Part shown: one piece after another, positions 1-47,863 of the stretch
Layout: each line of letters starts with the position of its first letter
Numbering within the stretch: position 1 is the first letter of the stretch
Source: Orobanche coerulescens
Lineage: Eukaryota; Streptophyta; Magnoliopsida; Lamiales; Orobanchaceae
Direction of reading: 5' to 3'
Assembly (NCBI GenBank): GCA_033398695.1
Contig: CM065801.1
Location: 52,958,358-53,022,357, forward strand
Length of the DNA: 64,000 bases
Made by a program: the position numbers and the translations under genes
The notes under the pieces: model-generated
Databases searched by the model: none
Seen by the model: the letters and a program-made list of their open reading frames with translations, nothing else
What the model was told of the DNA's origin: nothing

Positions 1-1358
1 AAACCTCGATCATATTCATAAAACCAACTAATCCAACTCACAAATACGAACTCATATCCACAATACAATCCGTAACTCGATGATCACAAATAACAATCAA
101 AAACCGATCAACTAACACAATGATTCTACAATATCCCGATTAAACACATATCCAAACAACCCGAACCAATCAAACACGAATTCAAAACCACAATACGATT
201 CCGCAATCCGAACATCATATCCATAATCAATTTAACCAAGTGTCTAAGCATTACCGATTCCAAATTCAATCTTAAATACGATACAAGTTTCCTCCTTGTA
301 AATTTATAATAAAAACGAATTACCGATTATCATCATCAATCCGGACAATACGATCAATTCAACATTATAGAATACTATATTCCAAAGGTTTCAAATATTT
401 CCATTATCCGAATTGAACACTTATTCTGTAACACCCCCAGATCAAACCGGGAATATTACATGCCGCAGACCCTCTCCGTGAGGATCCACCAGGCTAGACA
501 TCAACACAACACATTACATTACATACTGACGAATCAAAATAACGAATCAATAGACCGATTTGGTCTTCCGTCACTGACTTACAAATCAAAATACATAAAC
601 TCATCCAGACTCATACACATGCAAGGGTAAAATACTTGCAACGACGAACAATAAGACAGCGGAAAAGACAATACAATGGACTTCGACTAACTGAAGTCAA
701 AACTGGCCTTCGTGTGATTAGTATCATTCGTCTTTCATCATCCCTCGCACCGATCCTGTGTATTGCTCCCGAAAACCTGCATGTACCTGGACACAATACA
801 GATATCCACCCCCCGATTACTCGGGGGTTAGCAAAACTCCACTGTTTCGCTAGTGCAAGTATAAAGTGCAAATACGAGCCATACACAACACATTGCGAGA
901 ATACAACGAAAGACTTCCCGAGATATATTTAGTTAAAAATAGTTCAAGTCTTGAAAGTAGAAGCGAAGCAAGTAAGCACTTTGAAAATAATTCCAAATCT
1001 CTGGAGTTTTGAAAACATTAGAAGTTGAAAAGTTCTTAATTCCTCGAAAGTCATTTAGGGTCACAGCCCCAAAGTTCATTTTCCAAAATGCAAATCCGTT
1101 AACAAAACGCCGGGTCCACGACCCAACCATTCCGGTCACAAAACACAGGGTCCACGACCCGATCATCCACTTCAATTCACTTACAAGTGCACATTACACA
1201 TAACACATTAATTTTATGCCATTCTAGCCAAGCACCAAGACTCGATATATAATGTCTCTTGACCCCGAGCACAAAGCATTGTAATACTCCGGACAATATC
1301 ACAATTAACGAAAACATCAACGTCATCCTCAAGATGAAAACCACAACTGGTAACCCGC

Positions 1359-1569
1359 GGCCGTACCCCTTAGTATCGACCCCCAGACATCCCGTCGGAC
1401 ACTCCGGGTGGGAAACCACTTCTGCGGCCGTACCCCTTAGTATCGACCCCCAGACATCCCGTCGGACACTCTGGGTGGAAGTTCATCCACACACGCACCC
1501 AAGTCCACTTCCGTGGCCGTACCCCTTAGTATCGACCCCCAGACATCCCGTCGGACACTCCGGGTGGAA
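1359..1569. repeat. Tandem repeat with CCCGTCGGA core in S1, three copies
   Basis: Three nearly identical copies of a unit of about 54 bp start at 1359, 1426 and 1515, each beginning GGCCGTACCCCTTAG and ending CCCGTCGGACACTCCGGGTG. Spacers between copies differ. The CCCGTCGGA core also recurs in the tandem repeats of El-C and El-D LTRs, so it is a shared LTR module. Its function is unknown. Confidence 0.85.
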
Positions 1570-2777
1570 GGAACAACACACACAGACGTTCCAAAATCAC
1601 AGTTGCAACCCACAAGCCTCGAAGGTCAATCACAGTATATATAGTCGAGGTACCTTACTAGAATGGCCAGTTCATCCAACATATACTCACGACCAAGTAA
1701 TAATACGATTCATGCTAGAATTTCAACGATGCAGCTAGTACAAATAACATAGCAACGAGGGAAAATACCTATCCAACCACGCCGAACGACACAATGAGAC
1801 AGGATCATCAATAGGCATACGTTCCATACATATCTCAAGGAAAGGTTAAGCTATAAATCCTCAACGTCATAATCACACAAAACAATACCCCACACATACT
1901 TAGACAAGCATATTTAACAACGAAATCATACGAGTCATCTTTAAAGGAAGTATTGAAAAGCATATCAATTCCTTTGAAAGTTAATTATAGGTCTTCATAA
2001 ATCACGTATCGTAAATTACCAACTAATATATCCACAAAACACGTAATGTATGGGCAAGATACTTGCCTCGAATAAGAACAACGCGGAGAATCGATCGAAG
2101 TAGGTTGGCACGAACCGACTACGAACCCGCCGACTCCACCGCACGCCAACATGCGATAATAAACTATGAAGGACAAGAACAACAATGAAATGAATTCCAT
2201 AACACGACTCAAAGCCGTTGAATTCAAAGAACGAATGACGAAAGTTCAAGTGTTTTCCCTAAAACGGCCAAGAACACGATTCGTCCCGACAAAACACGAA
2301 AATGGAATTCTAAGTCGAAATATGGATATACAATCCATGGAATATGTTTAACAACATCATTTAACCACAATTTATCCAACAAAAACAGGTGGAAAACGAG
2401 ATCGAGAACAAATCCCCCAAAAAGTCGATTCGAAGGAAATCAAGAATATACTTCGATTCGACGAAGAACAATGGATTAAATGATGTTAAACACAAGAATA
2501 CTACCAAGATTAATCATACCCATCATGGATTAATCAACAACATGGAACGAATCGAATAAAAATGCAAAAACCCCCAAATTCACGAAATTAGGGTTCTAAG
2601 GGAGATTACCTTGATTCGCTGGATCAAAGGATGATAACGGATGATTGGTTGATGTTATAACCTCAAGAACTTCATGAATTTGTTGTTAAACAACATGGCT
2701 CCACGATCTCTAAGTCTCCAGCCGCAGAAGAGAAAGGTAGGAAATGAAAAACGAGATGAAATGTGACTGCTCTGTCA

Positions 2778-2785
2778 TATTTATA
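2778..2785 (-). promoter_or_regulatory. TATA box of S1 LTR
   Basis: On the minus strand the sequence is TATAAATA, 11 bp downstream (element sense) of the palindrome array that begins at 2797. The position fits a U3 promoter, since the element is transcribed on the minus strand. No transcript data are available. Confidence 0.6.
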
Positions 2786-2796
2786 CTGGGCCGGAC

Positions 2797-3067
2797 TAGC
2801 GCGCGCTAGGCTGCCGAGCTAGCGTGCGCTATCGGCCCAGGCCGCAGTCCAGTGCCCACACTGCCCTACTGACTCGGCCAGGTAGCGTGCGCAGCCTTCC
2901 GTCCGTAGCGCGCGCTACCTGCCGGTCGTAGCGTGCGCAATGCCCGACAGTAGCGTGCGCTACCTGCCGAGCATGACCGATTCCAGAACCCTGGACTCCA
3001 CTGTCCAGACCCGATAGCGTGCGTTAGGCCAGCCGATAGCGTGCGCTACACCTGCCGGTTAGCGCGC
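2797..3067. promoter_or_regulatory. Phased palindrome array in S1 (TAGCGTGCGCTA type)
   Basis: Twelve-base palindromes and near-palindromes start at 2797 and 2820; then 2883, 2906, 2929 and 2951; then 3015, 3037 and 3060. Spacing within groups is 22-23 bp. The last site is interrupted by S2 and the array continues at 4216 and 4243. Variants include TAGCGCGCGCTA and TAGCGTGCGCTA. If the S2 duplication is 4 bp (gcgc), the site at 4216 falls 23 bp after 3060 and completes a third group of four. Confidence 0.8.
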
Positions 3068-4196
3068 TGTCACGGGGTTGGGTTTGAGCACTCGAAAGCT
3101 CCTCGGACCCGTGCGACACTAGACTAGAATTGCCTCGATCTAGCTAGTAAGCCTAACTCACTCGGTTGCTAAGTGTGTAAGAAGGGGTTTATACTTTGGA
3201 GTTGAGAGAAAACTTCACTATTTCACAATCACTTACAAGTACAAGAATGTTGAGTCTTTGAGGGTTGGGTGCAAATGAGCCAACCTCAAGCCTATTTATA
3301 CTACTCCTAGGAACCTAGAACATTCTACTCCACCTCCTCATTTGGAGGGTTCTAGACCTATCTACAACATTACAATTCTAGAACCTAAACTCTAGAATCA
3401 TCCACACTTGTCTACAATATACAAGTCTTACAAACACAAGTCTAGAGTATTCTACAAGTACAAGACTAAGTACAATCTAGAATACTCCACAACCTTCAAG
3501 TGCTACATCCTTCTAGGAGGGTCCTAGAAGGTTCTTCCATCATCCCGGGCGCACGGCCCGTCTCTGTCCGTCCCGGCCCGCATCGGCCCGTCCCGGCCCG
3601 CACCGGCCCGTCTCGGCCCGACCATCTGGGCCCGTCTCTACAATGTTCCAGACTCTTCCCGAACCTCCTGGACCAAGCCGGTCCGCTTCTAGTTGCTTCC
3701 GGTCGAGTCTTTCCTGCTGAGTGGCTCCTCAGCTTTTCAATGTCTACTGCCCCCACAAGGCTTTTTCCGTCTAAGCCTATTATAGGGGGGAGGGTCTCTC
3801 TCGCACCTCGCGCGCACCCGTGCACGCCGGCCGCGCCGGCATCCCACGCCCGCGTCCGGCCGCCCAGCTCGAGTCCTGTTCCCAGACTCGGCCTTGTCCC
3901 GTCGTGCCTTGTCCCACACGACCTGTGCTCGTCCGGCCTTGCCCGCGCCCCCTGCGCTGCCGGACAGTCCCGAACATGTCCAGTCCGGAATGCCCCTTGG
4001 GCGATCCGCTTCCCACAGCGGCGTCCGTGCTCCCACGGCTTACTCGCGTGATTCTCCGTCCGATCACGCCGTCCTGAAGGCTGACTCTTCACATGCAGCC
4101 CGATGCCATCCATGGCGTCCTGCTCGTGCCGGTCCCTCGGCACCCTGTGCGACCGTCTGCGCACACATGTCTCGTTGTCGACTGTCGGCCGTGACA
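3068..4196 (-). mobile_element. S2: solo LTR of the El-E family nested in S1
   Basis: It starts TGTCACGGGGTT and ends CCGTGACA, giving inverted termini TGTCAC/GTGACA. The flanks are gcgcgc on both sides; a 4-bp duplication (gcgc) best restores the palindrome pitch of S1, although 6 bp is also possible. Shared segments with the El-E LTR (35344-36037) include the start and the block near 3720-3790 (CTCAGCTTTTCAATGTCTAC and following). It is longer than that LTR (1,129 against 694 bp), so it is another subfamily. ORFs here are GC-rich shadows, not genes. Confidence 0.8.
3560..3635. repeat. CGGCCCG short tandem repeats in S2
   Basis: A GC-rich stretch contains repeated CGGCCCG units separated by a few bases. 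The El-E LTR has the equivalent at about 35692-35757, so this is a family trait rather than a local expansion. Confidence 0.7.
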
Positions 4197-4254
4197 GCGC
4201 GCAGCCTTCCGGCCGTAGCGTGCGCTACGCCGGTTCCTGCCGTAGCGTACGCTA
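4197..4254. promoter_or_regulatory. Continuation of S1 palindrome array after S2
   Basis: TAGCGTGCGCTA lies at 4216-4227 and TAGCGTACGCTA at 4243-4254. These continue the array broken by S2. From 4255 to 4830 only AT-rich LTR sequence is seen, with no gene. Confidence 0.75.
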
Positions 4255-5731
4255 GGCCGGTTCCTGCCGCACCCGTCCGGCCGGTGCCCGCAATCGTCCG
4301 GCCAGTCCCGCAACCGTCCGGCCAGTGCTCGAACACCAGGGCTCGGCGACTCGATTTCCGAAAACGCACGGAACGAACACGACGAAAAGTTCGCGGACGA
4401 CATCAACAACCCGAAATGAAAACATAATGCAATAATTAATTATACGCGACCAAGAAACGGGTCGAGACAACAATTACAGATACGGATACCCGTAACTTTT
4501 AAGAAATTACAAAATGGCCCAAAACGCCCGGAAATCACGATACGTGATCGAATAACCAAACCGAAGTTCACAACACGTATAACAAAGTTAAACGAACTTA
4601 CGGGAAACTCGAAACAGCAGTTTCGACCGAGATTCGCAAGAATCGAACTCAAGTGCGGAAAAGTCGCTAAAAAGCACGGAACTCAATAAAACGATACCGA
4701 AACGAACTCGGATGACAAAAAGTGCAGAATTAATCATTCTCGAAATGACAAAACGGTCATGAGCGAGTCGTCAAAATGGACTCCGGCCGAAAAATAAATT
4801 TACCGGAAATCAAAGATTGCGGATATTACATATTCAACACGTATGAATTCTCAAATTCAAACATGAATAATAATTCTCATCAAACTCGAAATCATATTCG
4901 TATTCCTATACGAATATTGGATCAAAACACGTAACTTAGTTTTATATATGAATATTCCATATTCATATCCAAAACACCAACATCACTCAAACATGTTCAT
5001 CAATTCATATAATCCAAGAGTTCCTTAAGAACACAACTAATTCCGAAATCACATTCAAAATCCTCAAACGACATAATGTGATGTGTTCTAACATCTAAAC
5101 AATCCTTATTCACAATCCAAGGTGTATATAATGATGGCCTTCAACATATATACTTCTCATAACATCATGAATCACAACAAACTACCAAGAACATCGAGAA
5201 TACTACGATTCCATAATCATAACAACATAATCGAATCATTTGATCACCAATTCATTATCTTCCCTTGACAAAATTCTCGTAAATACCAAGAATCATCACA
5301 ACAATATCAACACAACCATCATTCATACGAAAACGTGTAGAATTTTCCAAGTTCTACTCATTGAGACATTTCATCGAACACTTTGAAGGCATAGTCCAAT
5401 TCAATCGATTATTCAAAGAAATACTCAAATTCGTTCCACAAAACTTCAAGAGTATTGAATGATTACGAGTTTACAATCAAGTTCAATCAACAATCTGAAT
5501 CAAAACGAAGCAAATCGGCCAAAACACCATGAAACCTCAAGAACATCCAAAAACCAAAAGTTTAGGTGTTCTTACCTTCGATCCGGGTGGAAGATGATGT
5601 TAATCCATGATTCCAACTTCCAAAACATGTTGTTATAAGTTGATTATACTAGAAACCATCAATCTATGGTGAAAAAGCGCGGATGGAACGAAGAAAAATG
5701 AAAAATGCCCAAGATGACTCGGTCCAGGCCT

Positions 5732-5757: not shown

Positions 5758-6317
5758 TTACGGCCGTAACCGGCCGTGGCTTACGTACGTAACCGTCCAT
5801 GGCCTGCCCACTGCCCATTTCTGTCGGAACCATTATGGACGTAACCGGCCCCTGCCTTACGTACGTAACGGGCCCTTACCGGCCACGTCCTTACGGCCGT
5901 AATCGGCCAGGCCTGACGCCCAGCGAGTCACTGTCGACAGTGATCAACCATCCCTACGAGTCACGGCCGGACATGCTCGGCCGTCCAGCGAGTCACTGCC
6001 GACAGTGATCGGCCACTGCAGGTCCTCTCGGCCACGACTCGACCGGCTACTCCGTAACGTACGTAACACTTAATCCGTTGCGTACGTAATACGTACGTTG
6101 ACTTGCTACAGTATAATACTCGTATTACGTACGTAATACACCATGTATAACGTACGTAAACCCATCCGTTGACTCACCTGTCCACATCTTCCGCCGAAAT
6201 CCGCCGACCACGGGCCCAACTGTCCGATTCCTCTTGTTACGTACGTAATGCCTTATGCATAACGTACGTAAAGCGTATAATTTAGCGTACGTTATCTCAG
6301 CATCTTAACGTACGTTA
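5758..6317. promoter_or_regulatory. Phased palindrome array of El-A (TTACGTACGTAA type)
   Basis: Sites start at 5758 (TTACGGCCGTAA), 5781, 5833, 5857, 5891, 6055, 6078, 6125, 6148, 6237, 6260, 6283 and 6306. The last four are spaced exactly 23 bp; the pairs 5758/5781, 6055/6078 and 6125/6148 are also 23 bp and 5833/5857 is 24 bp. In the right LTR two sites at 51275 and 51299 are 24 bp apart, showing that the irregular 5857/5891 interval comes from a small deletion in the left copy. The dominant site is TTACGTACGTAA. Confidence 0.8.
5928..6008. repeat. Pair of 16-bp palindromes in El-A LTR
   Basis: TCACTGTCGACAGTGA (5928-5943) is a perfect 16-bp palindrome and TCACTGCCGACAGTGA (5993-6008) is one mismatch away; starts are 65 bp apart. 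The right LTR has the pair at 51336-51351 and 51401-51416. They sit between groups of the 12-bp palindromes. Confidence 0.8.
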
Positions 6318-6646: not shown

Positions 6647-8293
6647 TGTAACACCCCAAACTAGGCGGATATTACAGTGCCGTGAATCCCCGATTGGGAC
6701 CCACCAGGCAAATGAAAACGATGAATTAAATAATATAATTGTAGTACCGAACCACATTATATTACCAAGTACTCCGATGAGGAGTTTAAGTACAACACAC
6801 CAGGATTAAACCGAATACTAGTATATTTTATATGGAGATAAAATACACCACCCTGAACAATTAAACATCTCAAACGGAATTTGCAGTGGAAAATACAAAT
6901 GACGGAATAACTGAAATGACTGAAATGACTGAAACAAACGAAATGACTGGGCCCCCCTACTAGTATCACTAGGACTCCTCGCCGTCAACATGATCTTCCC
7001 GTGCCTTTGCCTTGCCGTGACCTGAAAACAAAATCCCCCAACGGGGTCAGTTACACAGAACAACAATCCTCAAGGCTTGAAAATACACAATCATGATTTA
7101 ACTGAAGTTATGAATTACGCTGAAGAGGAGTATCATAGTACGCCCGTAACGTTCTGTGCAAGTGTACAAGACGAATGACCGGACACACCCGTCCTTGTAC
7201 CTAATTAGCCTCACGGAGTTAAGCGTTACCGTGTGCACGGTCCAATGTATCGGTGAACCCAATACATGACCATCGTGTGCCCGACTAAAAATTCCACACA
7301 GCCACACCCAGCCACGCAATATGAACCCAGAAGGTCATATGAATGAGAATGACCACAATGAATATCAATGAATAATAATTCGACAAGGCCAAGATGACTC
7401 ACCGAGATGAAAATAATAGTGACGTGATTGATAACCCAATGAAATGATTTGGAACCGTCGTTCCTCGTGAATGAAATGATTATTCGATAATTACAAGTCT
7501 CAATATGATTAAATACCATGATGAATGAGTTATGATTATGAGCAATCAACAACAAAAGGAATGAGTATCCTTTTAACCGAGTAAGAATTAACTTACACAA
7601 TACCGATGACAATGTCCTTCCACGAACAACGTCCTAAACGAGATACCGGTCGCTCGAACAACCTTGAATAACACAATATACCAAATATTCGATCATTACA
7701 CGAATCAAATACGATCATAACCGACTCAAACGTCGATACAACAATATCCGAACTCGTAGATGTACTCTAACGAAAACGTTGAGAATATCCTTCCCGTTGG
7801 TTATAACCAAACCCAAATTATCGAACCAACTTCGAATGATTGATTCAAACCAGCAAAACACTATCAATGACATCAATAATCTCATAGAAATCCACAATTC
7901 AAGTTTACAACAACAAGAATCGGAAAATCCCCAATTTAACCGAAGTCAACCCTAAGGGTTCTTGAAATAATTCCGAAAATAGCCAATAAATCCGTAGGAA
8001 TACATTTATCCAAGGTAGATAATCTATATCTAATGTATTCCAACAACAATCCAAGCTTACACGAAGAAATCGGAAGGAAAAACCCAAAAATCCGAAATTC
8101 TAGATCCAAGAGATTAATACCTTTGATTTGATGATAAGGAGATGATGAAATGATGATAATCCAACTCAAAGCCTTGAATATGATGATAGGTGATAACAGT
8201 TCGAAGAGAACACTCCAAGTCGCCCGAAATCGCCCGAAGTCGCTCCAAAACGAAGGGAAATGAGAAATGACGAAACTCAGGTTAACTGTCCAA

Positions 8294-8299
8294 TATATA
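8294..8299 (-). promoter_or_regulatory. TATA box of El-B left LTR
   Basis: The minus strand reads CTATATATTGG. It lies 12 bp downstream (element sense) of the first palindrome at 8312. The equivalent in the right LTR is 15391-15396. Confidence 0.55.
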
Positions 8300-8311
8300 G
8301 TCACTCCAGGT

Positions 8312-8878
8312 TAGCGTGCGCTAGCCCTTGTGCGTAGCGTGCGCTAACGGGTAATTTGGGTAGCCCAGTCCCCACTGTCCGAAAACGGTAGCGCGTGCTA
8401 CGTACCTTTTTATAGCGTGCGCTACAACCATACCATTAGCGTGCGTTAATACCCATGGTCAGCGTGCGCTAACGAATTATGTGATGCCCAGTACTGGAAT
8501 CCAGAAACCGTCTGTCCTCTGATCTGACCTCGGTAGCGTGAACTACAACCAATATTTAGCGTGCGCTATAATATCGATTGCGTACGCTAAAAACAACGCA
8601 TAGCGTGCACTATGAATTAATCCAGTGCAGTCCAGTAGCCACTAAACTCAACCTGATCCGTCCTTAGCGCGCGCTACAGCAATTATTAGCGTGCGCTACT
8701 ACAACCCACTAGCGTGCGCTACTTACCAATCGTAGCGTGCGCTACGTATAACTCACCTGCAGTCCAGTACCTTCTGGACTACTGCCAGGGTAACATTAGC
8801 GTGCGCTAATGCTGAGTGGTAGCGTGCGCTACCTATACTCAATTAGCGCGCGCTAGAAAGAGTATGTAGCGTGCGCTA
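8312..8878. promoter_or_regulatory. 18-site phased palindrome array, El-B left LTR
   Basis: Sites of type TAGCGTGCGCTA start at 8312, 8335; 8389, 8413, 8437, 8460; 8534, 8557, 8578, 8601; 8665, 8687, 8710, 8733; 8797, 8820, 8844 and 8867. Within groups the pitch is 21-24 bp, mostly 23. The four groups of four start 145, 131 and 132 bp apart, and the separators share CAGTCCAGTA and CTGGACT words, so this is a higher-order repeat. Spacers between palindromes are unrelated and AT-richer. The array stands directly upstream of the TATA box in the minus-strand direction. Confidence 0.9.
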
Positions 8879-9107
8879 CTCCTCACGCACAACCCACAAT
8901 GAAAATGACGATGATGATAAACACGCCACGGAACTCTAATTATGATAGTGATGAACGACGATTGATACACGATACAATTACTCTGAACGGTGAATACCAA
9001 GATTGAATATGAGTGACAAATGATCATTAATGAGTGAAATTACTGAATGATAAATACTGAATGATAATTACTGAATGACAATTACTGAATTACAACCGGG
9101 TATTACA

Positions 9108-9141
9108 TACACCCCCCCTTAAAAGAGTTTCGTCCCCGAAA
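9108..9141 (-). promoter_or_regulatory. Polypurine tract and adjoining hairpin of El-B
   Basis: The minus strand reads AAGGGGGGGTGTA just before the 3' LTR. Between the pol stop codon and this tract is an inverted repeat (GAGTTTCG, TCCC, CGAAACT on the plus strand, 9125-9141). The same stem is kept in El-A (16209-16228) and El-C (19063-19081, 28168). Confidence 0.75.
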
Positions 9142-11589
9142 CTAAGGATCAAACAACTCGGGATAACTCTCCCGCATACTATCCTCGGTTTCCCAAGTAG
9201 CCTCTTCGATTCCGTGCCTAGACCACTGAATCTTAACCAAAGGAATCGTCTTATTCCTCAACTGTTTGATTCGCCGCTCTAAAACTCGTATAGGATGCTC
9301 CTCATATGAATGGTCGTCAGCGATCTCGATTTCGTCGAACTGAAGTATGTGACTCGGGTCGGCAACATACTTCTGCAACTGAGAGACGTGAAACACATTC
9401 TCGTCGAACTGAGTACCGTGTAGTCTCACTATCTCCTTGATGAATAACTGGGCAAGTCTCTCGGGACCCCAAGTATCCTTGATCTCAAGAAAATGAGCTG
9501 ATTTAGTTAAGCGGTCCACAATCACCCAGATCGTATTCATGCCACGACGACTCGTCGGCAAACTCGTGATGAAATCCATAGAAATGTCTTCCCACTTCCA
9601 TTCGGGAATAGGAAGAGGCATCAGCATACCCGCCGGCCGCTGATGTCCAATCTTAACTTGTTGACAGGTTAAGCATCTCGAAACAAATTCTGCGACTTCT
9701 CGCTTCATATTACTCCACCAGTAATTTTGTTTCAAGTCCTTGTACATCTTGCTAGACCCCGGATGAACAGAATAAGGGGTAGCATGAGCTTCTTTCAAAA
9801 TCGAGTTTTTCAACTCGTCATTCGCCGGTACGCACAACCGATTCTTAAACCTCAAAAGTCCATCCTCGTGGACCACAAATCCAGGGGCTTTCCCCTGAGT
9901 CACATCTTCACGGATGCGCAACAATGAAGGGTCTGAACTCTGATTCTCTCGGATTTCCTCCTCGAGTGACGATGAAATCTCTAACATACAAAGTTGTCCC
10001 TGAACTCGCTGAAGCCAGACCTCGATCTCGGGTCTAAGGAATTCATGATGAAGCTCCTTCTGAACTGTTAAACGAGCAAGCATCTGCTCCTGAATGGACT
10101 TACGACTCAAGGCGTCGGCGACAACGTTCGCCTTGCCCGGGTGGTAAACGATCTCGATATCATAATCTTTGATTAATTCCAACCACCGTCTCTGTCGCAT
10201 ATTTAACTCCTTCTGAGTAAATATATACTTCAAACTCTTATGATCGGTGAATATCTGACAGGTAACGCCATAAAGATAATGACGCCAAATCTTCAAAGCG
10301 AACACCACGGCTGCTAGCTCCAGGTCGTGTGTCGGATAATTAACCTCGTAAGGTCTCAATTGCCGTGAAGCATAGGCAATAACCTTTCTATTCTGCATGA
10401 GCACACATCCGAGACCCTGTCCGGACGCATCACTATAAACCACAAATCCTTCCGTCCCCCGCGGCAAGGAAAGTACAGGTGCTGACATTAACCGTATCTT
10501 GAGTTCCTCAAAACTCCGTTGACACACGTCGGACCACGTGTATTTCTTATCCTTTCGCAAAAGGTTCGTTAAGGGTTGAGCGATTCTAGAAAATCCTTCC
10601 ACAAATCGCCGATAATAACCTGCTAATCCGAGGAAACTTCGAATTTCCTTAACATTCTTCGGAGGTAGCCAATCTCGAATAGCCTCCGTCTTCTGAGGAT
10701 CGACACGAACTCCGTTTGAAGAAATTACGTGTCCGAAAAACGTCACTTCGGACATCCAGAACTCACATTTGGAAAACTTCCCATACAGTTGTTCTCGTCT
10801 CAACACGTCGAGCACTTGATGAAGGTGAAACTCGTGTTCCTCCCGGTCACGAGAATAAATCAAAATGTCATCGATGAAGACAACAACAAACTGATCCAAA
10901 AAGTCGATGAAAACCAGATTCATTAACTCCATGAATACCGCAGGTGCATTAGTCAATCCAAACGGCATAACCACAAACTCATAATGACCATAGCGTGTTC
11001 GAAACGCCGTCCTCGCGATATCCGACTCTCGAATCCGCAACTGATGATATCCAGATCTTAAGTCGATCTTGGAAAATACTGAAGCTCCCTGAAGTTGATC
11101 TAAGAGATCATCAATACGGGGTAAGGGATACTTATTCTTGATCATCTCCCTGTTCAACTCCCGATAATCGATATACAAGCGAAAAGGACCATCCTTCTTC
11201 TTGACAAATAACACTGGTGCTCCCCACGGGGACGCACTCGGTCGAATATAACCCTTCTCGAACAACTCCTCAAGTTGGTTCTTTAATTCCTGCATTTCGG
11301 TCGGGGCCATCCGGTACGGTGCCTTCGATATCGGGGACGTATCGGGCTCCAACTCAATCGTGAATTCCACATCCCTCTGTGGAGGCAAACCAGGAAACTC
11401 GTCTGGAAAAACATCGGCATATTCCCTCACTACCGGAATGTCCGTCAACATTACTGATGATTTCTCGGTTTTGGTCATGTAGCACCAATAACCAACACAT
11501 CCCTGACTGAGTAGTCGCACTGCTTTCATCATATTAATGACCTTACTGCAATGTAGGATTACCTCCCTGAAACACACATTCAACCCCAT
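9142..11589 (-). CDS. pol: El-B pol: RT, RNase H, truncated integrase, chromodomain (815 aa)
   Basis: A long minus-strand ORF that overlaps the protease frame by 47 bp in another frame, which points to a frameshift in an originally single gag-pol ORF. RT occupies about residues 100-260, with [10 protein letters not shown] near 174 and the active-site FIDD near 238. RNase H follows (SDASGQGLG, then [10 protein letters not shown] and ADALSRK). The integrase zinc-binding region (H, H, then CLTC) and the first catalytic Asp ([10 protein letters not shown]) are present. The sequence then jumps from RLHGT to [12 protein letters not shown] near residue 735: the other two catalytic residues and the rest of the core are missing in frame. 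A Tekay-type chromodomain ends the protein ([18 protein letters not shown]). Integration would be impossible. Confidence 0.92.
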
Positions 11590-12052
11590 CGTCTGAAATG
11601 ATAGTGATCATACGCTTACGGACACTAATGATGGCATCATGACGATCCATCCAATCAATACCCAAGATGACGTCGTCCCTCGGCAATTCTACTACGATTA
11701 GGTCCGCTGGCCATACACGACCATGAAACTGAATCGGACAATTCTGAATCTCACGATTACCGATAATTCGTCTACCATCAGGTAGGCCAATGACATAAGG
11801 CTCACAACTAGTAGCACTACCCAGACGTAGTCTACTCAAACATGACTCGGAAATGAAAGAATGCGATGCACCAGTATCAAAAAGGGTACACACAGGTTGA
11901 GATAGAATATCGAGTGTACCTGAAATCATTCGGGCCTCTGGATCATCGGTCTTCTTCATCTCATAAATCCGGGGCTTGCTAGTCCCGGCACCGGACGCTC
12001 CCATCTGCTGGCTATAGGCTCCACCTTTAGTCGCTCCTGTCATTTTAAACAA
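11543..12052 (-). CDS. El-B aspartic protease
   Basis: This 169-aa ORF carries the retropepsin motif [12 protein letters not shown] and continues in the same frame as gag, from which only a TAG at 12185-12187 separates it upstream. It ends within the start of pol, one frame away. The protease cleaves the Gag-Pol polyprotein in retroelement particles. The reading frame is intact across the domain. Confidence 0.85.
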
Positions 12053-13258
12053 CGCTGATTGAGTGGCCTGATTCTGAACGACTGACTGCTTAGGGGCTTG
12101 AGATGGCGTCTGAGTAGGTTTGGAGTCCCTACGGCAAAAACGGGCCTTATGCCCAGCAATCCCACAATTATGACACGTGATAGTCTATCTCGGACACTTG
12201 GTACTGAGATGACCAAGATCCCAACAGTTAAAACAGGTGATGGCCGAATTGGCCGCTCGTGACAGAGATTCCGCGGGTTTAGACGTCACAGGAGGTCGCT
12301 CAGAAAAAGCAGAGCCCGCACGAGGTTTCTTGAAAGTGGCCTGACTGCCGTCGGACTGATTACGGTTCTTGGACTTCTTGCTAGCAGATGAAGGTTGCTG
12401 CTTAGCAATCTCCTTAGCAGTAAGCTCATAGGTGAGAGCTTTCTCGATTAATTCGGCCAACGTGGTGCAATTATGATTAAGCAATTGTAGTCTCATACGG
12501 GGTTTCAGCCTCTTGCTGAAATACTTGATTTTAACTGCCTCGGAATGAATGATAGATGAGGCGAACGGAAGAAGTTCCTGAAATTTCTCGGCAATGGCGA
12601 GAACATCCTCGTCTGATGAGGGGTCGGGGGTGAGTAATTCTGACAGTTTGGCCTCTCTGAGCGGGGCCGGATAATACCTCTCCATCATGAGAGTTTTGAA
12701 ATGATCCCAAGTACATGATCCTTCAGTGGTCTTCAACGACAACTACCAAGAATGTGCGCTCTTACCCAGGTAGTAAGCCGCCACAGAAACTTTGTGTCCT
12801 TCGGGACACTCTACCATAGCAAACAACTTCTCGAAATGCTTGAGCTAATGAATAATATCTGCCGGCTCAGACGAGCCCTCAAAAGTAGGTGGCCTCTGGC
12901 AAGAGATGTCGCCGATGATATTACTCACATTCCTCTCTTGCCTCTGAGGTGGCGGCGGAGGAGCCTGTTGATTTTGATTGACGGAGTTATGCATCGTCTT
13001 CATCAGCTGTGCCATCTGGGTCATTTGGGCCATCATGCCCTGCATAAAAGCGAGTGGGTCAACCCGGGCACCTTCTGACTGAGCCGTGTCCTGCACGACT
13101 CCCGTTAGTGAATGATCGCGTCCAGGTGAATGAGTGGCAGCGTCGCTGCTCGATGAATTAGCATTATTTCTCGCGTTTGCACGTGTATTCACACGAGCTC
13201 TCGGGATTCGGCCCACTCCACGGCCTCGTCCTCCACATCCTCTTCTTGCCCTCTCCAT
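12053..13258 (-). pseudogene. gag: El-B gag with three in-frame TAG stops
   Basis: The start at 13258 gives an Arg/Gly-rich N terminus (MERARRGCGGRGRG). The frame stays constant through the capsid region (WDHFKTLMMERYYP) and two CCHC knuckles (CFNCWDLGHLSTKC and CHNCGIAGHKARFC). TAG codons interrupt it at 12845-12847, 12743-12745 and 12185-12187, the last lying between the two knuckles. Gag forms the particle core and binds RNA. No frameshift is needed, so the damage is by point substitution only. Confidence 0.88.
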
Positions 13259-13726: not shown

Positions 13727-15390
13727 TGTAACACCCCAAACTAGGCGGATATTACAGTGCCGTGAATCCCCGACCGGGACCCACCAGGCAAATGAAAACG
13801 ATGAATTAAATAATATAATTGTAGTACCGAACCACATTATATTACCAAGTACTCCGATGAGGAGTTTAAGTACAACACACCAGGATTAAACCGAATACTA
13901 GTATATTTTATATGGAGATAAAATACACCACCCTGAATAATTAAACATCTCAAACGGAATTTGCAGCGGAAAATACAAATGACGGAATAACTGAAATGAC
14001 TGAAATGACTGAAACAAACGAAATGATTGGGGCCCCCTACTAGTATCATTGTGACTCCTCGCCGTCAACATGATCTTACCGTGCCTTTGCCTTGCCGTGA
14101 CCTAAAAAAAAAATCCCCCAACGGGGTCAGTTACACAGAACAACAATCCTCAAGGGTTGAAAATACACAATCATGATTTAACTGAAGTTATGAAATATCC
14201 TTAGTTATGAATTACGCTGAAGAGGAGTATCATAGTATGCCCGTAATGTTCTGTGCAAGTGTACAAGACGAATGACCGGACACACCCGTCCTTGTACCTA
14301 ATTAGCCTCACGGAGTTAAGCGTTACCGTGTGGACGATCCAATGTATCGGTGAACCCAATACATGACCATCGTGTGCCCGACTAAAAATTCCACACAGCC
14401 ACACCCGGCCACGCAATATGAACCCATAAGGTCATATCAACGAGAATGACCACAATGAATATCAATGAATAATAATTCGACAAGGCCAAGATGACTCACC
14501 GAGATGAAAATAATAGTGACGTGATTGATAACCCAATGAAATGATTTGGAACCGTCGTTCCTCGTGAATGAAATGATTATTCGATAATTACAAGTCTCAA
14601 TATGATTAAATACCATGATGAATGAGTTATGATTATGAGCAATCAACAACAAAAGGAATGAGTATCCTTTTAACCGAGTAAGAATTAACTTACACAATAC
14701 CGATGACAATGTCCTTCCACGAACAACGTCCTAAACGAGATACCGGTCGCTCGAACAACCTTGAGTAACACAATATACCAAATATTCGATCATTACACGA
14801 ATCAAATACGATCATAACCGACTCAAACGTCGATACAACAATATCTGAACTCGTAGATGTACTCTAACGAAAACGTTGAAAATATCCTTCCCGTTGGTTA
14901 TAACCAAACCAAAATTATTGAACCAACTTCGAAGGATTGATTCAAACCAGCAAAACACTATCAATGACATCAATAATCTCATAGAAATCCACAATTCAAG
15001 TTTACAACAACAACAATCGGAAAATCCCCAATTTAACCGAAGTCAACCCTAAGGGTTCTTGAAATAATTCCGTAAATAGCCAATAAATCCGTAGGAATAC
15101 ATTTATCCAAGGTAGATAATTCATATCTAATGTATTCCAACAACAATCCAAGCTTACACGAAGAAATCGGAAGGAAAAACCCAAAAATCCGAAATTCTAG
15201 ATCCAAGAGATTAATACCTTTGATTTGATGATAAGGATATGATGAAATGATGATAATCCAACTCAAAGCCTTGAATATGATGATAGGTGATAGCAGTTCG
15301 AAGAGAACACTCCAAGTCGCCCGAAATCGCCCGAAGTCGCTCCAAAATGAAGGGAAATGAGAAATGACGAAACTCAGGCTAACTGTCCAA

Positions 15391-15396
15391 TATATA
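15391..15396 (-). promoter_or_regulatory. TATA box of El-B right LTR
   Basis: The minus strand reads CTATATATTGG. As the 5' LTR in element orientation this would drive transcription of El-B. It lies 12 bp from the palindrome at 15409. Confidence 0.6.
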
Positions 15397-15408
15397 GTCA
15401 CTCCAGGT

Positions 15409-15975
15409 TAGCGTGCGCTAGCCCTTGTGCGTAGCGTGCGCTAACGGGTAATTTGGGTAGCCCAGTACCCACTGTCCGAAAACGGTAGCGCGCGCTACGT
15501 ACCTTTTTGTAGCGTGCACTACAACCATACCATTAGCGTGCGTTAATACCCATGGTCAGCGTGCCCTAACGAATTATGTGATGACGAGTACTGGAATCCA
15601 GAAACCGTCTGTCCTCTGATCTGACCTCGGTAGCGTGCGCTACAACCAATATTTAGCGTGCGCTATAATATCGATTGCGTACGCTAAAAACAACTCATAG
15701 CGTGCGCTATGAATTAATCCAGTGCAGTCCAGTAGCCACTGGACTCAACCTGATCCGTCCTTAGCGCGCGCTACAGCAATTATTAGCGTGCGCTACTACA
15801 ACCCACTAGCGTGCGCTACTTACCAATCTTAGCATGCGCTACGTATAACTCACCTGCAGTCCAATACCTTCTGGACTACTGCCAGGGTAACATTAGCGTG
15901 CGCTAATACTGAGTGGTAGCGTGCGCTACCTGTACTCAATTAGCGCGCGCTAGAAAGAGTATGTAGCGTGCGCTA
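15409..15975. promoter_or_regulatory. Phased palindrome array, El-B right LTR
   Basis: This is the counterpart of 8312-8878, with the same groups and pitch. Substitutions are private to each copy: a site that is TAGCGTGAACTA in the left LTR is TAGCGTGCGCTA here, while TAGCGTGCACTA (near 15511) and TAGCATGCGCTA (near 15830) are degraded here only. The comparison shows the ancestral sites were closer to perfect palindromes. Confidence 0.88.
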
Positions 15976-16204
15976 CTCCTCACGCACAGCCCACAATGAA
16001 AATGACGATGATGATAAACACGGCACGGAACTCCAATTATGATAGTGATGAACAACGATTGATACACGATACAATTACTCTGAACGGTGAATACCAAGAT
16101 CGAATATGAGTGACAAATGATCATTAATGAGTGAAATTACTGAATGATAAATACTGAATGATAATTACTGAATGATAATTACTGAATTACAACCGGGTAT
16201 TACA

Positions 16205-16378: not shown

Positions 16379-17388
16379 TGTAACACCCCCAATCCGCCCA
16401 GGGATATTACACGCCGTAGAACCTTTCCTCAAGGATCTACCAGGCTAGTAACAACATGAAACATCTCGACAATGCCTTTAAGGCTAAAATGACTCAGTAG
16501 ACCGATTTGGCCTTTCAATAAAAACATACAACTCGATTACAACTCATACCCACACAGGGGTCAAAACACAACCACACCCGTACAACAGGAAAAATATAGC
16601 AGCGAAAAATAAAGTACAACTGAACCACTACACGATGTACGGTTCCTCATGTGATTAGTATCGATCATCTTTCATCATCCTTCATGCCGACCCTGTGTTA
16701 TGATCCAAAACCTGAATGAAAAAACAGACATCCACCCCCCGAATACTCGGGGGTTAGCAAAACTCCACTGTTTTGCTAGTGCAAGAACAAAGTGCAAATA
16801 CGAGCCATACAATTCACATTCCACGAATAACAATAACCAGGAATCCTCAAAGATCCAAACGAAACGAAAAGTACTTCCCGAGGCAAGAGTTTGAGAAAAC
16901 CTTTCAAAATCGAAATATCATAAATCAATGGAAATAATTTATAAAACGGTTTAGAATGCCATCGAGAGTTTTAATAGAAAACAATTTAGGATTATCAAAT
17001 CCTACTTTTCAAAATCCAAAAGACAAAAGGGGTCACCGCCCCAAAGGTTTACTTTCTGAAAAATGACATTTACCAAACCGTTGGGATTTTAGCCCCAAAT
17101 CCATAAAATGACTTTTACAAAACCATTGGGATTTTAGCCCCAAATCTCGTCAACTCACAGTACACAAGAACGACCACAAGGTTCGTCTTCCAATGTCAAA
17201 ATCCACAATTAAAGGATTTAACACAAACAACAAAATACTCTAGAGCCATCCTAGCCAAGTAGGCCAAACGAACAACTTACCTCTTACACACTTAGTCAAT
17301 GCATGCAATCATGAAAACCGTTCAAAAGCACTCATTTCTGAAAATGCCATAATCAAATCACATTTGCAAAATGCACCACAATTAACCA

Positions 17389-17525
17389 TCGATCCACGTC
17401 TCTGTGGACCCCTACCGAGACCCCGTCGGATCTAGCCCGTAGTGGTTAAAAGCAAGCTCGTCGATCCACGTCTCTGTGGACCCCTACCGAGACCCCGTCG
17501 GATCTAACCCGTAGTGAGCATACAC
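17389..17525. repeat. 72-bp tandem duplication with CCCGTCGGA core (El-C)
   Basis: Two copies start at 17389 and 17461 (TCGATCCACGTCTCTGTGGA, which can fold into a small stem, then CCCCGTCGGATCT). LTR2 has the pair at 26495 and 26567, and LTR3 at 31525 and 31597. Confidence 0.85.
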
Positions 17526-18569
17526 ACACACACACGTTACTCATGCAATACTAACATGATAAGAATGTAAGTTCATTAAGAATACTCACTAGAGATGGCC
17601 ATTAACTCGACACCATTATCAAACTCTTCAAAACACAATAACAAGATTAAATACGGAATACATGATTCCATAACTTTAAACAATAGGAGTATCATCATCA
17701 AATCCTTCAACGTTCAAAATAATCAAATCATAATCAATTCTCAAAACACGCCGTTCAAAAAACACACACGCATTTTCAAAGAAAGCCTTTAACGAGGCCG
17801 AACCGAAATCTTTTGAAACTTCATTTCAAACAACCAAACAAACACACCAAGACGATCACCGATCATCATATCCACAAAATAAGAAAAGTATGGGCAAGGT
17901 ACTTGCCTCGATATCACGAGCAATGGAAAAATGAACGGATATGGCCGGGTAGCCCTCAAATTCCTGAACACTATCTAGAACGCGATAGCACCGAAATTAC
18001 TACGGGAAAACACCACATGAATTATCAATCACCAACGGAATTCAACATCGGAATCATCGAGCACCTATAATCCTCCGTAAGGAATAATAAAACATGATTA
18101 TGACGAGAATCAAGGCGGAAAAAAAACGGAAATCCCAACAAACTATCAAAGGGAACTCATTCGAACATTTAATCGAACATTAAATGTTCAAGACCCTTCA
18201 AGAACAAAGAAATCACCCCTCGGATCGAACGAACCAAAGATATGAGTATCCAATCCGTAGAACAAGTTCAAAACAACGTTTATACAACAATTAATTGATC
18301 AAAAATGGATTGGAATCGAAATCAAAAAGGAAAATCCCCAAATCTACAAAAACAAGGGTTCAAGCCAAAATACCTTGATTTGGATGAAGGATTCAAGTAG
18401 AGGTCGAAAATCTACAACAAGACTTGAGGTGGATGATCTATACAAGTTTGGGAGCACTCAAATCGCCCAACATCACCCTTAGAATCGCCTAGAATGGTAG
18501 GAGGAAGAAGAGAGGAGAAAATGAATGTTTCTCCTCGAAAATCTGCTAAAAAGTGCAGAAAAAGCCCGT

Positions 18570-18668
18570 GTGCCGCGGCACAGGACAAGTGTGCCGCAGC
18601 CCAGGGCCAAAAAAAAACGCCCAGAAATCAGCTTAGTGCCGCGGTCCAGCCGAAGTGTTCCGCGGCAC
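18570..18668. promoter_or_regulatory. GTGCCGCGGCAC palindrome pairs, El-C LTR1
   Basis: Sites start at 18570, 18591, 18636 and 18657, that is, two pairs at 21-bp spacing. LTR2 (about 27673-27771) and LTR3 (about 32701-32799) have the same sites with better-conserved CCGCGG cores. They occupy the same part of the LTR as the TAGCG arrays of other families. I saw no clear TATA box beside them. Confidence 0.6.
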
Positions 18669-21600
18669 ACGGTACAGTCCACTCCAACACCAAAAAGGCA
18701 CATCGTGCAGTCTTGGCTATTTAGACCATAACTCCTTCGTCTGGACTCCGATTGACTCACTGTTTGAACCATTGGAAAGCTAACTTGATGATATATAATA
18801 TTGCAAAGATTTAAAATTTTTGGAGTTTCCAAGAATTAATGGTGACTTTACAAAGTCGAACTCCCACGTTGAAAAGTCGATTTAGGACACGGAACTCAAC
18901 AAAACGACACCGAAACGAACTCGGATGACAAAAAGTGCAGAATTAATCATTCTCGGAATGACGAAACGGTCATGAGCGAGTCGTCAAAACGAACTTCCGC
19001 CGAAAAAAAGAAAATTAACGAAATTCAAAATTGCGGATATTACATTCTACTTTCCTTAAAAGAAGTTTCGTCCCGAAACTTAAAACAAGTAGGGGGGGAG
19101 AAATATACCCGCCAGGAAAACTCGACGAGATACACAAAAATAGAAAACTCGCGCCCAACGGCGAAACGCTGCAAGAAACGCAAAGAGACATACGACGTGA
19201 AAACACGCTCCACGACGACCAATACAACGTCGCCATTAGGGATATAATAAAACCAACAAATGACAAGCGTCATCAAACGGATAATATAGCCAAGTCAATT
19301 ATCCGACAATCACAAAACACAACGAACGAAAGTCAGTATGATTGACCAACCCAACGGTACATCAATCGAAACGCGAGCCAATCGCTGAACCAATACGGAA
19401 TTCCATCGCCCAAGGGTTGGAAGATCGAAAACGAGACTAATTTCCCGAACTTAAGGGAATTACGAAGGAGTCTGAACGTTCAATAATCACGAAACGAGAT
19501 TAACAAAAACCGAACAATTAATGATCGAACCACAACGATCGAGTCAACAAAAAATCGAATAATCATGTTCGGATCACGAAGAACAATAAGGTTCAACCGA
19601 CAACTCCGAAGTTCACATCTCGACTCGAGACGAAACATGATCTGGTGAAAACAAAAAAATGTGCACTCACATAAAATCCACAGGAAAGGGAATAGCAATC
19701 GAAAAAAATCACAACGACAAACGAGTTATTCCGAAACAATACCGCACTCGTTCGATCAACAAAAGCAAGAGGCAGGACAAGCTCAGAAATGTCAACGAAC
19801 ATAAACGAGTCGACAGAGTCGAAAACACAAGAGTTCCAAATCCGATCCACTTCGAATAAAAGAACTAGTAGAACCAGATGATGCCACTTCGAACAAGGTT
19901 CACAAGAATCGAACCGAACCCGAAAAGTCACGGCGATAGCCAGATCGACCCATAACAAGATCGCAGTTCGTTCGGACGATGAAACCGAAATACAGAACAA
20001 GTTCATAAAGTATCAACGAACATGAGCGAATCGATAGACTGGAGAAAGAGAAAATACGGAAGTCAAAATAGTACGGGTATTACCTCCGACCTCGTCCACG
20101 AAATTCACAAAAACAGGAGCAAGGTAACAAGACATTAAACAACCGACACATAACAGAACGATCATCGATGCACACGGTCATACCAAACCAAGCTCTAACA
20201 GCTCGCACATGCGCGATAACGCAGAAATCACCACGAGATGGCAACATTCAATACCAACATCCCACCTCTCACAGAGGGCTAACACAGCAAATGTGTGGAA
20301 AACAACTCAACGCTCACGCCACCAACTCGATCATACTCGGGAGCAAACATCAAAATGACAATGCGAACATCATACATACATACCCAGCCCTCAAACGGGA
20401 ATGGATAGGTTTTAAAAACGAAAACCTCATTTTGAAAATAATTTTGAAGAACACTGGTTGATCTTGAGTATCACCTTTCAAAAAGTACAAACGTGAAACA
20501 TCGTTATCGAGACATTGGAGAACCATTTCGCATTTGATAAAAATGAGGACACTTTCTCTTAGTGAAAACTTTCAGAATATTTGATCCTCGGGTCTAAATA
20601 AAAGTGTTTCTAAAACATTGAAAATATCTCAAAGCATTTTGGTCCTCGAAGTAGAATTTTTTTTTGAAATATATTGTGGCACCTAGGATGTACCACAAGA
20701 AAATAACTCATTTTAAAAGTATGTCTCGAAATTTATTTTTCTAAGATACTCAAGGTTTTCAAAAATCCAATAAGCCAGAATGCCCAAAACTCACACATAT
20801 CGACGTTCACTAAAACAACTCCTAGTACACGCATCAAAGCGTTTAAAATCAAGACAATACATGTCTTTAAACGGAAATAAACGATAAAATACCACAGTCG
20901 AAGACCGCCTAGGATTCAGAACAAAACCACTGACCCCATTTGAGGCCTCTAAGGACCCTCCCGCCCTGGCTAGTGAACAAGTCGAACGCGTATAAGCACA
21001 AAGCTTCCACAATAGAACTTGTAAAACGTGCAAATCGATTCGAAAATCATCAGCAACGGACAAAAACAACAATAAAAAGACATCACAAGCGATGACACTC
21101 CTCGTATAAATCAAATACGAGAGCCGACTAAATACATATCGTGAAATCAAAATCCACACACTACACCATATATGGGTTTCAGCAACACTTGAAAAACTGA
21201 GTTCAAAAGTCCAAAAAGTGTTGCTGAAGGCCAAAAAACAGGCTACGGCTACACTTTGACCAAATTTGAAGGTGTTACAAAAACGGCCGCAACCATAGGG
21301 GTCTAAGGTAACACTTTTTTTGTTTTTGGTAACATGTGAAAAAAGTGTAATAATAGACCCCTATGCCAACACTTTTCTTGTCTGTGCCTACACTAGATTT
21401 TTTGTTGCTGTAGACTTAAGGCCACACTTTTATATATTTAGTGACACAAATGTTTGTGTAGCTGTAGTCCTATGCTAACACTCATGAGGTCTAGTGTAAA
21501 ATTAAATTATGAAACACTTTGACATCTTTAAAAACAACTTTAACACTATGGCTAGACTTATATATGAACAGTTCTAACTTTTACCAATACACTTTTAATT

Positions 21601-34395: not shown

Positions 34396-34610
34396 TAGCG
34401 TACCCTACGTACTCTACGTAACGTGCACTAAGCCTGCCTGTTAGCGTACGTAAACGACGAAGTCTAGCGTACGTTAACTTATGTACCGGCAGTCCTCTCT
34501 GACCAGCCCACTGACTCGGCTGATGACATAACATACGTTACGTACCAAACGTAGCGTACGTTATTCATTCCTGATGGCGCACGTTAATATATACATCTTA
34601 GTGTGCGCTA
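34396..34610. promoter_or_regulatory. Two palindrome quartets, El-D left LTR
   Basis: Sites start at 34396, 34419, 34442, 34465 and at 34529, 34552, 34575, 34599; steps are 23 or 24 bp and the two quartets begin 133 bp apart. Sites vary around TAGCGTACGTTA. This block lies about 700 bp downstream (element sense) of the TATA box. Confidence 0.82.
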
Positions 34611-37464: not shown

Positions 37465-37497
37465 GATGTTTCCTGCGAAAGGGTCCTGCCTCAGTCC

Positions 37498-40627: not shown

Positions 40628-40805
40628 TTTCACGGGGTTATACTTGCGCCTGGCTAAGTCCTCACCATGCGGCACTCTTAGGTTGTCTCAAGCCTAAGTA
40701 CTAAGCCTTCTAATCAATAAGACTGCTAGGAAGGAAAGTAAGGAAATGCTTGGGGAAGGTTTTCTCTTATTGCACTGTAGCAAATCAGATTTCTAAGTGT
40801 GTGTT
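40628..40805 (-). repeat. El-E right LTR remnant (178 bp)
   Basis: It matches 35344-35521 closely, with the terminal TG changed to TT. After 40805 it passes abruptly into the chromodomain codons of El-D, so a deletion removed about 515 bp of this LTR plus the adjacent El-D end. Confidence 0.85.
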
Positions 40806-41489: not shown

Positions 41490-41519
41490 GTCTTCTACTG
41501 TTTGTATAGTCCTTTAGGA

Positions 41520-46105: not shown

Positions 46106-46290
46106 AACGATCCAGCGCCCTCGGTATAGATCCCCATGATGATCCCGTCGGACCAATGCATGGTGGAAAACTCGTCCAACGATCCAGCGCCCTCAGCATA
46201 GATCCCCATGATGATCCCATCGGACCAACGCATGGTGGACATTCGATCCAGCGCCCTCATCATAGATCCTTATGATCCCCTCGGATCATT
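46106..46290. repeat. Tandem repeat with CCCGTCGGA core, El-D right LTR
   Basis: Units begin near 46106 and 46178, with a short third near 46247; each has GATCCCRTCGGACC and ATGGTGGA. Confidence 0.8.
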
Positions 46291-46618: not shown

Positions 46619-46833
46619 TAGCGTACGCTACGTACTCTACGTAACGTGCGCTAAGCTTGCCCGTTAGCGTACGTAAACGACGAAGTCTAGCATACGCTAA
46701 CTTATGTACCGGCAATCCTCTCTGACCAGCTGACTGACTCGGCTGATGACATAACGTACGTTAAGTACCAAACGTAGCGTACGTTATTCTATCCCGATAG
46801 CGCACATTAATATATACATCTTAGCGTGCGCTA
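46619..46833. promoter_or_regulatory. Two palindrome quartets, El-D right LTR
   Basis: Starts are 46619, 46642, 46665, 46688 and 46752, 46775, 46798, 46822: steps 23, 23, 23 and 23, 23, 24, with 133 bp between quartets. Sites are variants of TAGCGTACGCTA and TAACGTACGTTA. Confidence 0.85.
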
Positions 46834-47544: not shown

Positions 47545-47556
47545 GAAAATGGTTAT

Positions 47557-47863
47557 TAGCGCGCGCTAGTCCATATTCATAGCGTGCGCTAACGGCTATA
47601 CGAAACTTACTAACTTCACTGTACTCAGCGTTTAGCGTGCGCTATCCTCATATCATTAGCGTGCGCTACCGCGTTGACTTGGCTTTTTCCGAAAGCCGTC
47701 CAGGTTCATCCCGACATAATTCGACCAAGATCCGCGGCCTGATCTCACCTACCAACACGTCTCAATCATGCTGACCACGTATAGCGCGCGCTAAGGTTCA
47801 TATATAGCGTGCGCTACTAAACCCAAATTAGCGTACGCTACGCCTAGTCGATAGCGTGCGCTA
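47557..47863. promoter_or_regulatory. Promoter-proximal palindrome block, El-D right LTR
   Basis: TAGCG-type palindromes start at 47557, 47580; 47633, 47657; 47782, 47805, 47829 and 47852. Steps within groups are 23 or 24 bp. The left LTR lost this block when El-E inserted at its first site. Confidence 0.85.

Follow-up and report, generated by a model that had tools for sequence, protein, structure and literature searches.

Phased arrays of a CpG-containing dyad in long terminal repeats of Orobanche coerulescens

The El-B element and its array

We analyzed a 64,000-nucleotide stretch of the Orobanche coerulescens genome (assembly GCA_033398695.1, contig CM065801.1, positions 52,958,358 to 53,022,357 of the forward strand), hereafter the window, with positions counted from its first letter. 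It contains the Ty3/gypsy element El-B, whose two long terminal repeats (LTRs) carry arrays of short dyad-symmetric sites. The features of El-B are as follows.

6647..9107, minus strand: El-B LTR (3' copy in sense), from self-comparison, with the TGTAATACCC start and the GGGTGTTACA end
8294..8299, minus strand: TATA box (TATATA), its start 13 bp past the proximal site in sense
8312..8878, minus strand (the sense strand): U3 array of 18 dyad sites in groups of 2+4+4+4+4
9113..9120, minus strand: purine tract (AAGGGGGG in sense) adjoining the U3 end
9142..12742, minus strand: frames with capsid-like, protease, reverse transcriptase (RT), RNaseH, and integrase zinc-binding matches (Ty3/gypsy; Pfam)
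13727..16204, minus strand: partner LTR, 96.9% identical to the 6647-9107 copy (self-comparison)
15409..15975, minus strand: 18-site array of identical layout in the partner LTR

The gene direction, the purine tract at 9113-9120, and the TGTAATACCC start all give the minus strand as sense, and the array therefore occupies sense positions 230-796 of the 2461-bp LTR, i.e., it lies in U3. For the RT frame, the highest identity among the 120 best protein matches listed was to Rumex salicifolius (75% over 87% of the query).

An initial annotation, made from the sequence alone, had described 18 twelve-base palindromes in this LTR at steps of 21-24 bp. A recount of 8312-8878 gave the same 18 sites and, inside the groups, the same steps. 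The quartets start at 8389, 8534, 8665, and 8797, that is, 145, 131, and 132 bp apart, as annotated. The grouping by four holds for these four quartets, but the first group (sites 8312 and 8335) is a pair. Likewise, the sites are dyads but the common word is not a full palindrome, having 5-bp arms around a TG/CA core. The commonest word in sense is TAGCGCACGCTA; ten of the 18 sites are exactly TAGCGTGCGCTA, and the other eight differ from it by one or two changes. The dyads were also said to lie on nearly the same face of the DNA. This was not borne out: with 10.5 bp to the helical turn, a 23-bp step amounts to 2.19 turns and rotates the dyad by ~69 degrees, which rules out same-face helical stacking inside a group.

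Four LTR families of the window (A, B, C, and E) have a common motif class and the 23-bp pitch. By eye, the separators between the El-B runs (8347-8388, 8472-8533, 8613-8664, and 8745-8796) and those in A, C, and E have short words in common (GGACAGTGG, ACTGGACTGC, and CCGAGTCAGT in sense), and GGACAG recurs right after the TATA box in families B and C. These words could perhaps be sites of a second factor.

Motif, pitch, and promoter position across the genome

Oriented 12-bp sites in runs, often of two or four, at ~23 bp, with gap classes ~11 bp apart and mostly 12-44 bp before a TATA box, occur in many LTR families of two superfamilies. The general motif, derived from 57 pooled sites (one copy per LTR, chosen by similarity), is TWRCGNNCGYWA, with the pattern T[AT][AG]CG-NN-CG[CT][AT]A. 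Positions 1, 4, 5, 8, 9, and 12 (T..CG..CG..A) are near invariant (54-56 of the 57 sites); positions 2 and 11 are A or T, position 3 is G or A, and position 10 is C or T. The six bases flanking the motif on each side carry 0.02-0.17 bits. At up to two mismatches, TAGCGTGCGCTA has 119 strand-matches in the window, compared with 1.91 on average and 5 at most among 100 dinucleotide-shuffled sequences; a near-palindrome is often scored on both strands, and the shuffles were counted alike. A motif-free scan for any 12-mer with at least five of six dyad pairs gave 23 bp as the top spacing both before and after masking of the duplicate LTR copies. After masking, 17 pairs lie at 23 bp, whereas 100 local simulations never gave more than 5 pairs at this spacing or more than 9 at any spacing.

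The array is confirmed as real and as far wider than first noted. In the host genome searched (3.65 Gb, 1279 contigs), the El-B array had 5967 first-look candidates, and the 40 that were scored match it over its full length, give or take one base, with 94-100% identity. Exact TAGCGTGCGCTA pairs 0-30 bp apart number 242,417, versus 0 for the reversed pattern, and 131,744 exact pairs lie at precisely 23 bp; the step is 22-24 bp in 94 of the first 100 pairs among the matches listed. Hence, the phasing on which the initial annotation hinged is kept in other genomic copies. A systematic sample of twenty 10-kb stretches (200 kb), taken at round coordinates from six contigs, contained 184 perfect TWRCGNNCGYWA matches with step 23 dominant. 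This extrapolates to ~3.4 million perfect sites in the whole genome, a rough figure since the sites are clustered. Arrays, defined as at least four sites with at least two short steps, numbered 16 and were present in 10 of the 20 stretches; their run lengths were 4 (25 cases), 3 (7), 2 (29), and 1 (14). When 20 arrays were compared with the sites masked, three pairs were clearly related (E below 1e-10) and seven weakly.

The spacers, by contrast with the sites, are close to chance. In El-B, pair identity is 0.90 for the sites and 0.33 for the 13 spacers, versus 0.31 (standard deviation 0.014) when shuffled. Across all seven site sets of the window (five without the duplicate LTR copies), site identity is 0.71-0.94 and the spacers are within ~2 standard deviations of the shuffled level. 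Among genomic pairs at step 23 (the first 100 among the matches listed), we found 64 distinct spacers in 21 types; these spacers carry -0.04 to 0.17 bits per position, except for the last base (0.54 bits; G or T). The view that the spacers are unrelated is upheld both by their near-shuffled identity in the window and by their diversity among the genomic pairs listed, and they are not as conserved as the palindromes. A simple tandem repeat is ruled out by the spacer identity.

The array had also been placed in an LTR promoter, and it does adjoin TATA boxes in the window families and in most sampled arrays. In the four window families, the TATA box starts 12-21 bp past the array. Helical phasing of this distance, inspected by eye, is not proposed here. 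Fifteen of the 16 sampled arrays were examined (one 4-site array was omitted), and in 11 of them a TATA box is located no more than 60 bp away and begins 13-44 bp past one end; for the 10-30 bp range, the count is seven of 15, compared with 2.7% of random points. The off-centre core reads CA towards the TATA box in all ten informative arrays, judged by the majority of sites (a single site in one case), two of the ten being repeats of a family already counted. A Del-type LTR start lies 154-530 bp upstream in seven of the 11 promoter arrays; three have none, and one had only 32 bp searchable. As background, the 200-kb sample contains this start pattern 58 times, counting both strands.

Distances between runs cluster near 43, 53, 64, and 75 bp, and none of 38 gaps falls in the ranges 56-60, 68-72, or 79-85 bp, where the gaps come from one hand-chosen array per family, 44-48 bp is excluded as doubled steps, and the empty ranges were read from the same data. 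Under a smooth null, none of 1000 jittered sets reaches the observed value at each of five site thresholds. Separately, the gypsy arrays (25 gaps) gave 0 of 1500 and the copia-type arrays (13 gaps) P = 0.0027. The ~11-bp distance between gap classes is likely one helical turn, the alternative being half of 23 bp.

The word and the pitch are common to Ty3/gypsy LTRs and at least one Ty1/copia LTR. The El-B frames and those between the family C LTRs are Ty3/gypsy by Pfam. The array at L051:6195-6714 has no Del-type start upstream; after it, in sense, come the word TGGTATCGGAGC, which resembles the usual primer-binding site of plants, and then frames that match a copia-type gag domain (PF14223, E 3.4e-11) and a zinc knuckle. 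The L037 array is related to that of L051 by non-site sequence, and L048 to L037 downstream of the array. Between gypsy and copia-type arrays, no similarity was found between the sites at E 0.01. Exchange of U3 modules between the superfamilies is possible. The LTR of L037 adjoins a frame (L037:7033-8512) with a BED zinc-finger match just above the cut-off (20.7 vs 20.6 bits). By eye, it reads like a remnant of a hAT transposase; it has no homologue at E 1e-5 and was dropped as a candidate element-encoded binder.

A putative host-read enhancer and its alternatives

Our interpretation, held with moderate confidence, is that the array would be a U3 enhancer platform for a putative host dimeric DNA-binding protein that activates the LTR promoter. 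A host-encoded protein would bind each site, most likely as a dimer; binding would be cooperative between neighbours in a run, with a rotation of ~70 degrees from each to the next, the runs would be held in helical register, and the assembly would activate the promoter. More weakly, the CpG in each half-site may make binding methylation-sensitive, in which case silenced copies would not compete for the factor; CpG methylation might thereby serve as an on/off switch. The initial annotation had suggested a cooperative platform for a dimeric protein of host, element, or chromatin origin. The promoter-proximal platform is retained, given the TATA adjacency and the sites and pitch that persist across families while the spacers differ; the binder is narrowed to a probable host protein, and the dimer is suggested by the dyad itself. 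A host factor seems more likely than an element-encoded protein because gypsy and copia elements, which encode different proteins, have the word and pitch in common.

The motif offers weak candidates for the binder. NAC-domain sites are described as having a CGT core, e.g., T[TAG][GA]CGT[GA], usually in spaced inverted repeats such as TTGCGTG-6n-CACGCAA (PMC4106437). By eye, TAGCGTG and TTACGTA could fit as NAC half-sites, but the two halves are spaced more tightly here than in the published palindromes, and the CG- and GC-centred sites have no CGT. A BZR1-type CGTGCG presumably fits the TG core only.

In the El-B LTR pair, all seven site differences are at CpG, and the difference is 0.032 for sites vs 0.031 for spacers; in the El-C pair, six of eight site differences are at CpG, with rates of 0.083 and 0.076, respectively. 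No protection of the sites from CpG decay after insertion was seen between these LTR pairs, and inserted copies seem to be without it. When 20 El-B copies were aligned with the window copy, non-CpG columns varied 2.3 times less in sites (32/2937, or 0.0109) than in spacers (171/6840, or 0.0250). This lower non-CpG variation of the sites would fit constraint during the activity of the element, followed by decay. For CpG columns in the same 21 copies, variation is 0.024 (sites), 0.028 (spacers), and 0.058-0.073 (remainder of the LTR); of the 38 site differences that fall at CpG, 34 are C>T or G>A.

Several points weigh against our interpretation. The 20 El-B copies are the best array hits, and hence the comparison of the array with the rest of the LTR is biased, while that of sites with spacers is not; in addition, variants common to several copies were counted more than once. 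The half-sites do not co-vary inside arrays (P 0.33 and 0.12), so that the symmetry rests on the sites themselves; their coupling, strong with families pooled and absent inside arrays, was not used as proof of dimer recognition. Part of the uniformity of the motif is built in, as the 57 sites were picked by similarity. Four of the 15 sampled arrays have no TATA box within 60 bp; three of these weakly resemble either one another or the second family C array, and the fourth has a like layout. The gap test restricted to the window yields P 0.007 with all gaps and 0.09 with unique gaps, and the best period varies by subset from 10.75 to 12.15 bp, which does not separate one helical turn from half of 23 bp. 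The copia case is direct for one array (L051), and two more are joined to it by DNA similarity. The families perhaps have a common deep ancestry and are not fully independent. Finally, a literature search by motif letters gave no LTR paper among the matches listed.

The same arrays could be bound by a host silencing or methylation factor, through which the plant would recognize and repress the elements. The decay of site CpGs after insertion, much as in the rest of the LTR (seven of seven differences in El-B, six of eight in El-C, and the 34 of 38 C>T or G>A), is what methylation would produce, and the large number of target sites suits recognition. Still, this is unlikely, as sites harmful to the elements should be lost, yet in many families they are kept or regained at a constant pitch, adjacent to the element's TATA box and oriented with respect to it. 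Binding by an element-encoded protein, anti-silencing or auto-activating, would have a precedent in VANC of the VANDAL transposons, whose targets are short motifs at high density and in the same orientation in non-coding parts of plant transposons (PMC5735166, PMC10398659). However, VANDAL is a DNA transposon, its YAGTATTAY motifs lie within tandem repeats, and its binder is encoded by the element, whereas here the spacers do not repeat, and both Ty3/gypsy and Ty1/copia LTRs carry the motif at this pitch. In the three long El-B frames tested, gag and pol domains were the only ones to appear, and we regard an element-encoded binder as quite improbable.

A role of nucleic-acid structure, either as hairpins between neighbouring palindromes in U3 RNA or as a source of small RNAs, appears very unlikely. 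The El-B array folds better than 100 shuffles (z -5.4 in sense and -8.2 in antisense), but any set of palindromes is expected to do so. Moreover, the commonest sense core, CA, would place two A.C mismatches in between-site pairing, the wobble-friendly TG being on the antisense strand; the pairing bases inside the site do not co-vary within arrays, and hairpins account for neither the TATA link nor the gap classes. We give almost no credence to a functionless neutral repeat generated by slippage or by template switching of reverse transcriptase. Segmental duplication may have contributed, since shifted self-alignments of the El-B array have ~65% identity over some 480 columns, sites included. 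Nevertheless, the spacers are near chance identity while sites and pitch are kept, the arrays are common to families without detected between-site similarity, and they are oriented to the TATA box.

We also put forward, tentatively, a broader proposal. The LTR elements of both superfamilies may obey a common promoter grammar read by the host and made up of the dyad word, its 23-bp pitch, runs of two to four sites, gap classes of about one helical turn, and orientation to TATA. With ~3 million sites by rough extrapolation, the activity of much of the mobile genome would then depend on a single host factor that binds in a methylation-sensitive manner. The amplification of LTR families partly depends on who reads their promoters. 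A single, quantitatively defined grammar in families without detected between-site similarity means that one probe could suffice to isolate the reader protein, and that insertions of a few bases can test the rules for pitch and gaps. Were the factor methylation-sensitive, silencing would be linked directly to enhancer occupancy, and the CpG-rich stretches reported ahead of the TATA boxes of Sirevirus and Del LTRs would have an explanation.

Known systems and further arrays

By analogy, the best reading of the putative U3 platform is that it would work like the palindromic RM boxes of the Sirevirus (Ty1/copia) elements, for which a regulatory role was proposed and experiment called for (Bousios et al., 2010, PMC2829016). 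Sireviruses already offer a precedent for palindromic boxes ahead of the TATA box in LTRs. The Sirevirus core is CGG-CCG, with one exception, while that of our arrays is TWRCG-NN-CGYWA and lacks the Sirevirus signature. Our arrays also have a fixed pitch, runs of four, an orientation, and gap classes, none of which is mentioned in the section on RM boxes. Unlike Sirevirus, the window elements are Ty3/gypsy; one sampled array (L051) lies in a Ty1/copia element. Sirevirus palindromes were reportedly also the subject of a 2016 study in Genome Research.

CpG islands at the 5' end are known for Del LTRs (Cruz et al., 2014, PMC4029996), and by LTR ends our elements are of the same lineage type. In the text of that paper, the word stem 'palindrom' occurs 0 times, and no CpG island is reported for its eudicot Del elements; here, unlike in that report, the CpG-rich stretch is resolved into a phased dyad array. 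The LTRs of families A, B, C, and F end in GGGTGTTACA, with a U5 att carrying GGG at -8 to -10, as in Del type A. A chromo domain was found in the frame 35911-37497 (E 2.6e-11), was below the cut-off in 40785-41513 (E 7e-4), and was absent from the three El-B frames tested. Tandem boxes are also found in stress-responsive LTR enhancers such as Tnt1 BII and the ONSEN heat-shock elements, where host transcription-factor sites are repeated in U3 in far smaller numbers; we know of no genome-wide 23-bp grammar common to enhancers of this type. Pairs of ACGT have been described in Arabidopsis, and the available text does not describe an El-B-type array (PMC3354754). As far as literature searches show, the present arrays are new in their different core, fixed 23-bp pitch with runs of four, orientation rule, gap classes, and occurrence across superfamilies.

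Prokaryote and virus collections searched for pairs of such words yielded two stray pairs (L001 and L002) and one phage array. The latter (L003:5761-5931 of IMGVR_UViG_3300033463_001428, a bacteriophage contig with terminase and portal genes), found via a search that asked for two such words at this spacing, has eight TTACGTACGTAA-like dyads at 22-23 bp steps around ACGTACGT. Four of the eight are perfect to the general motif, the spacers are unrelated, and there is no DNA similarity to the window. The dyads, perhaps an operator array, sit immediately in front of a small gene that has no Pfam match; its top PHROG match has no known function (E 1.4e-8), and the next one is an Arc-like repressor (phrog_582, E 1e-4). 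In L001 (12696-12730), a high-GC viral contig, the two TAGCGTGCGCTA words are in opposite orientation, 23 bp apart; we judged this pair unrelated.

The other LTR families of the window have the following features.

427-4830: family A LTR, 4.4 kb
2797..3048, minus strand: family A array, 8 sites; TATAAA starts 12 bp past the array in sense
4216 and 4243: two extra family A sites
5758..6317, minus strand: family E array, 13 sites called, core mostly ACGTACGT; TATATA starts 21 bp past the array in sense
45641-48035: family C LTR, judged extent
47557..47863, minus strand: family C U3 array, 8 sites; TATATA starts 13 bp past the array in sense
46619..46833, minus strand: second family C array, in R/U5 downstream of TATA (4 sites, 64-bp step, 4 sites)
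34396-34610: second array of the other family C LTR copy, same layout
16379-19044 (minus strand), 25485-28147, and 30515-33175: family F LTRs

The family A LTR is seemingly solo and lies inside another LTR, an uninterrupted copy of which is found at 50439-51263. The downstream array of family C exemplifies a second array type without a nearby TATA box, observed at 46619-46833 in the window and at L038:5208-5421, L040:1561-1774, L048:9729-9941, and L049:6388-6680. It mostly consists of four sites, ~64 bp, and four sites, and is perhaps an internal enhancer or has a second function.

No run of the main motif was called in the family F LTR. About the same part of this LTR (18570-18668) has GTGCCGCGGCAC-type dyads, also typed as GCCGCGGC in the comparison with the Sirevirus core, in two pairs at a 21-bp pitch, i.e., two turns. 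Since these are dyads of another word, a phased CpG dyad in U3 may be a more general rule. In L034, L040, L046, and L047, words of the TTACGGCCGTAA type, a variant of the main dyad centred on GC, form additional short runs at 21-23 bp steps.
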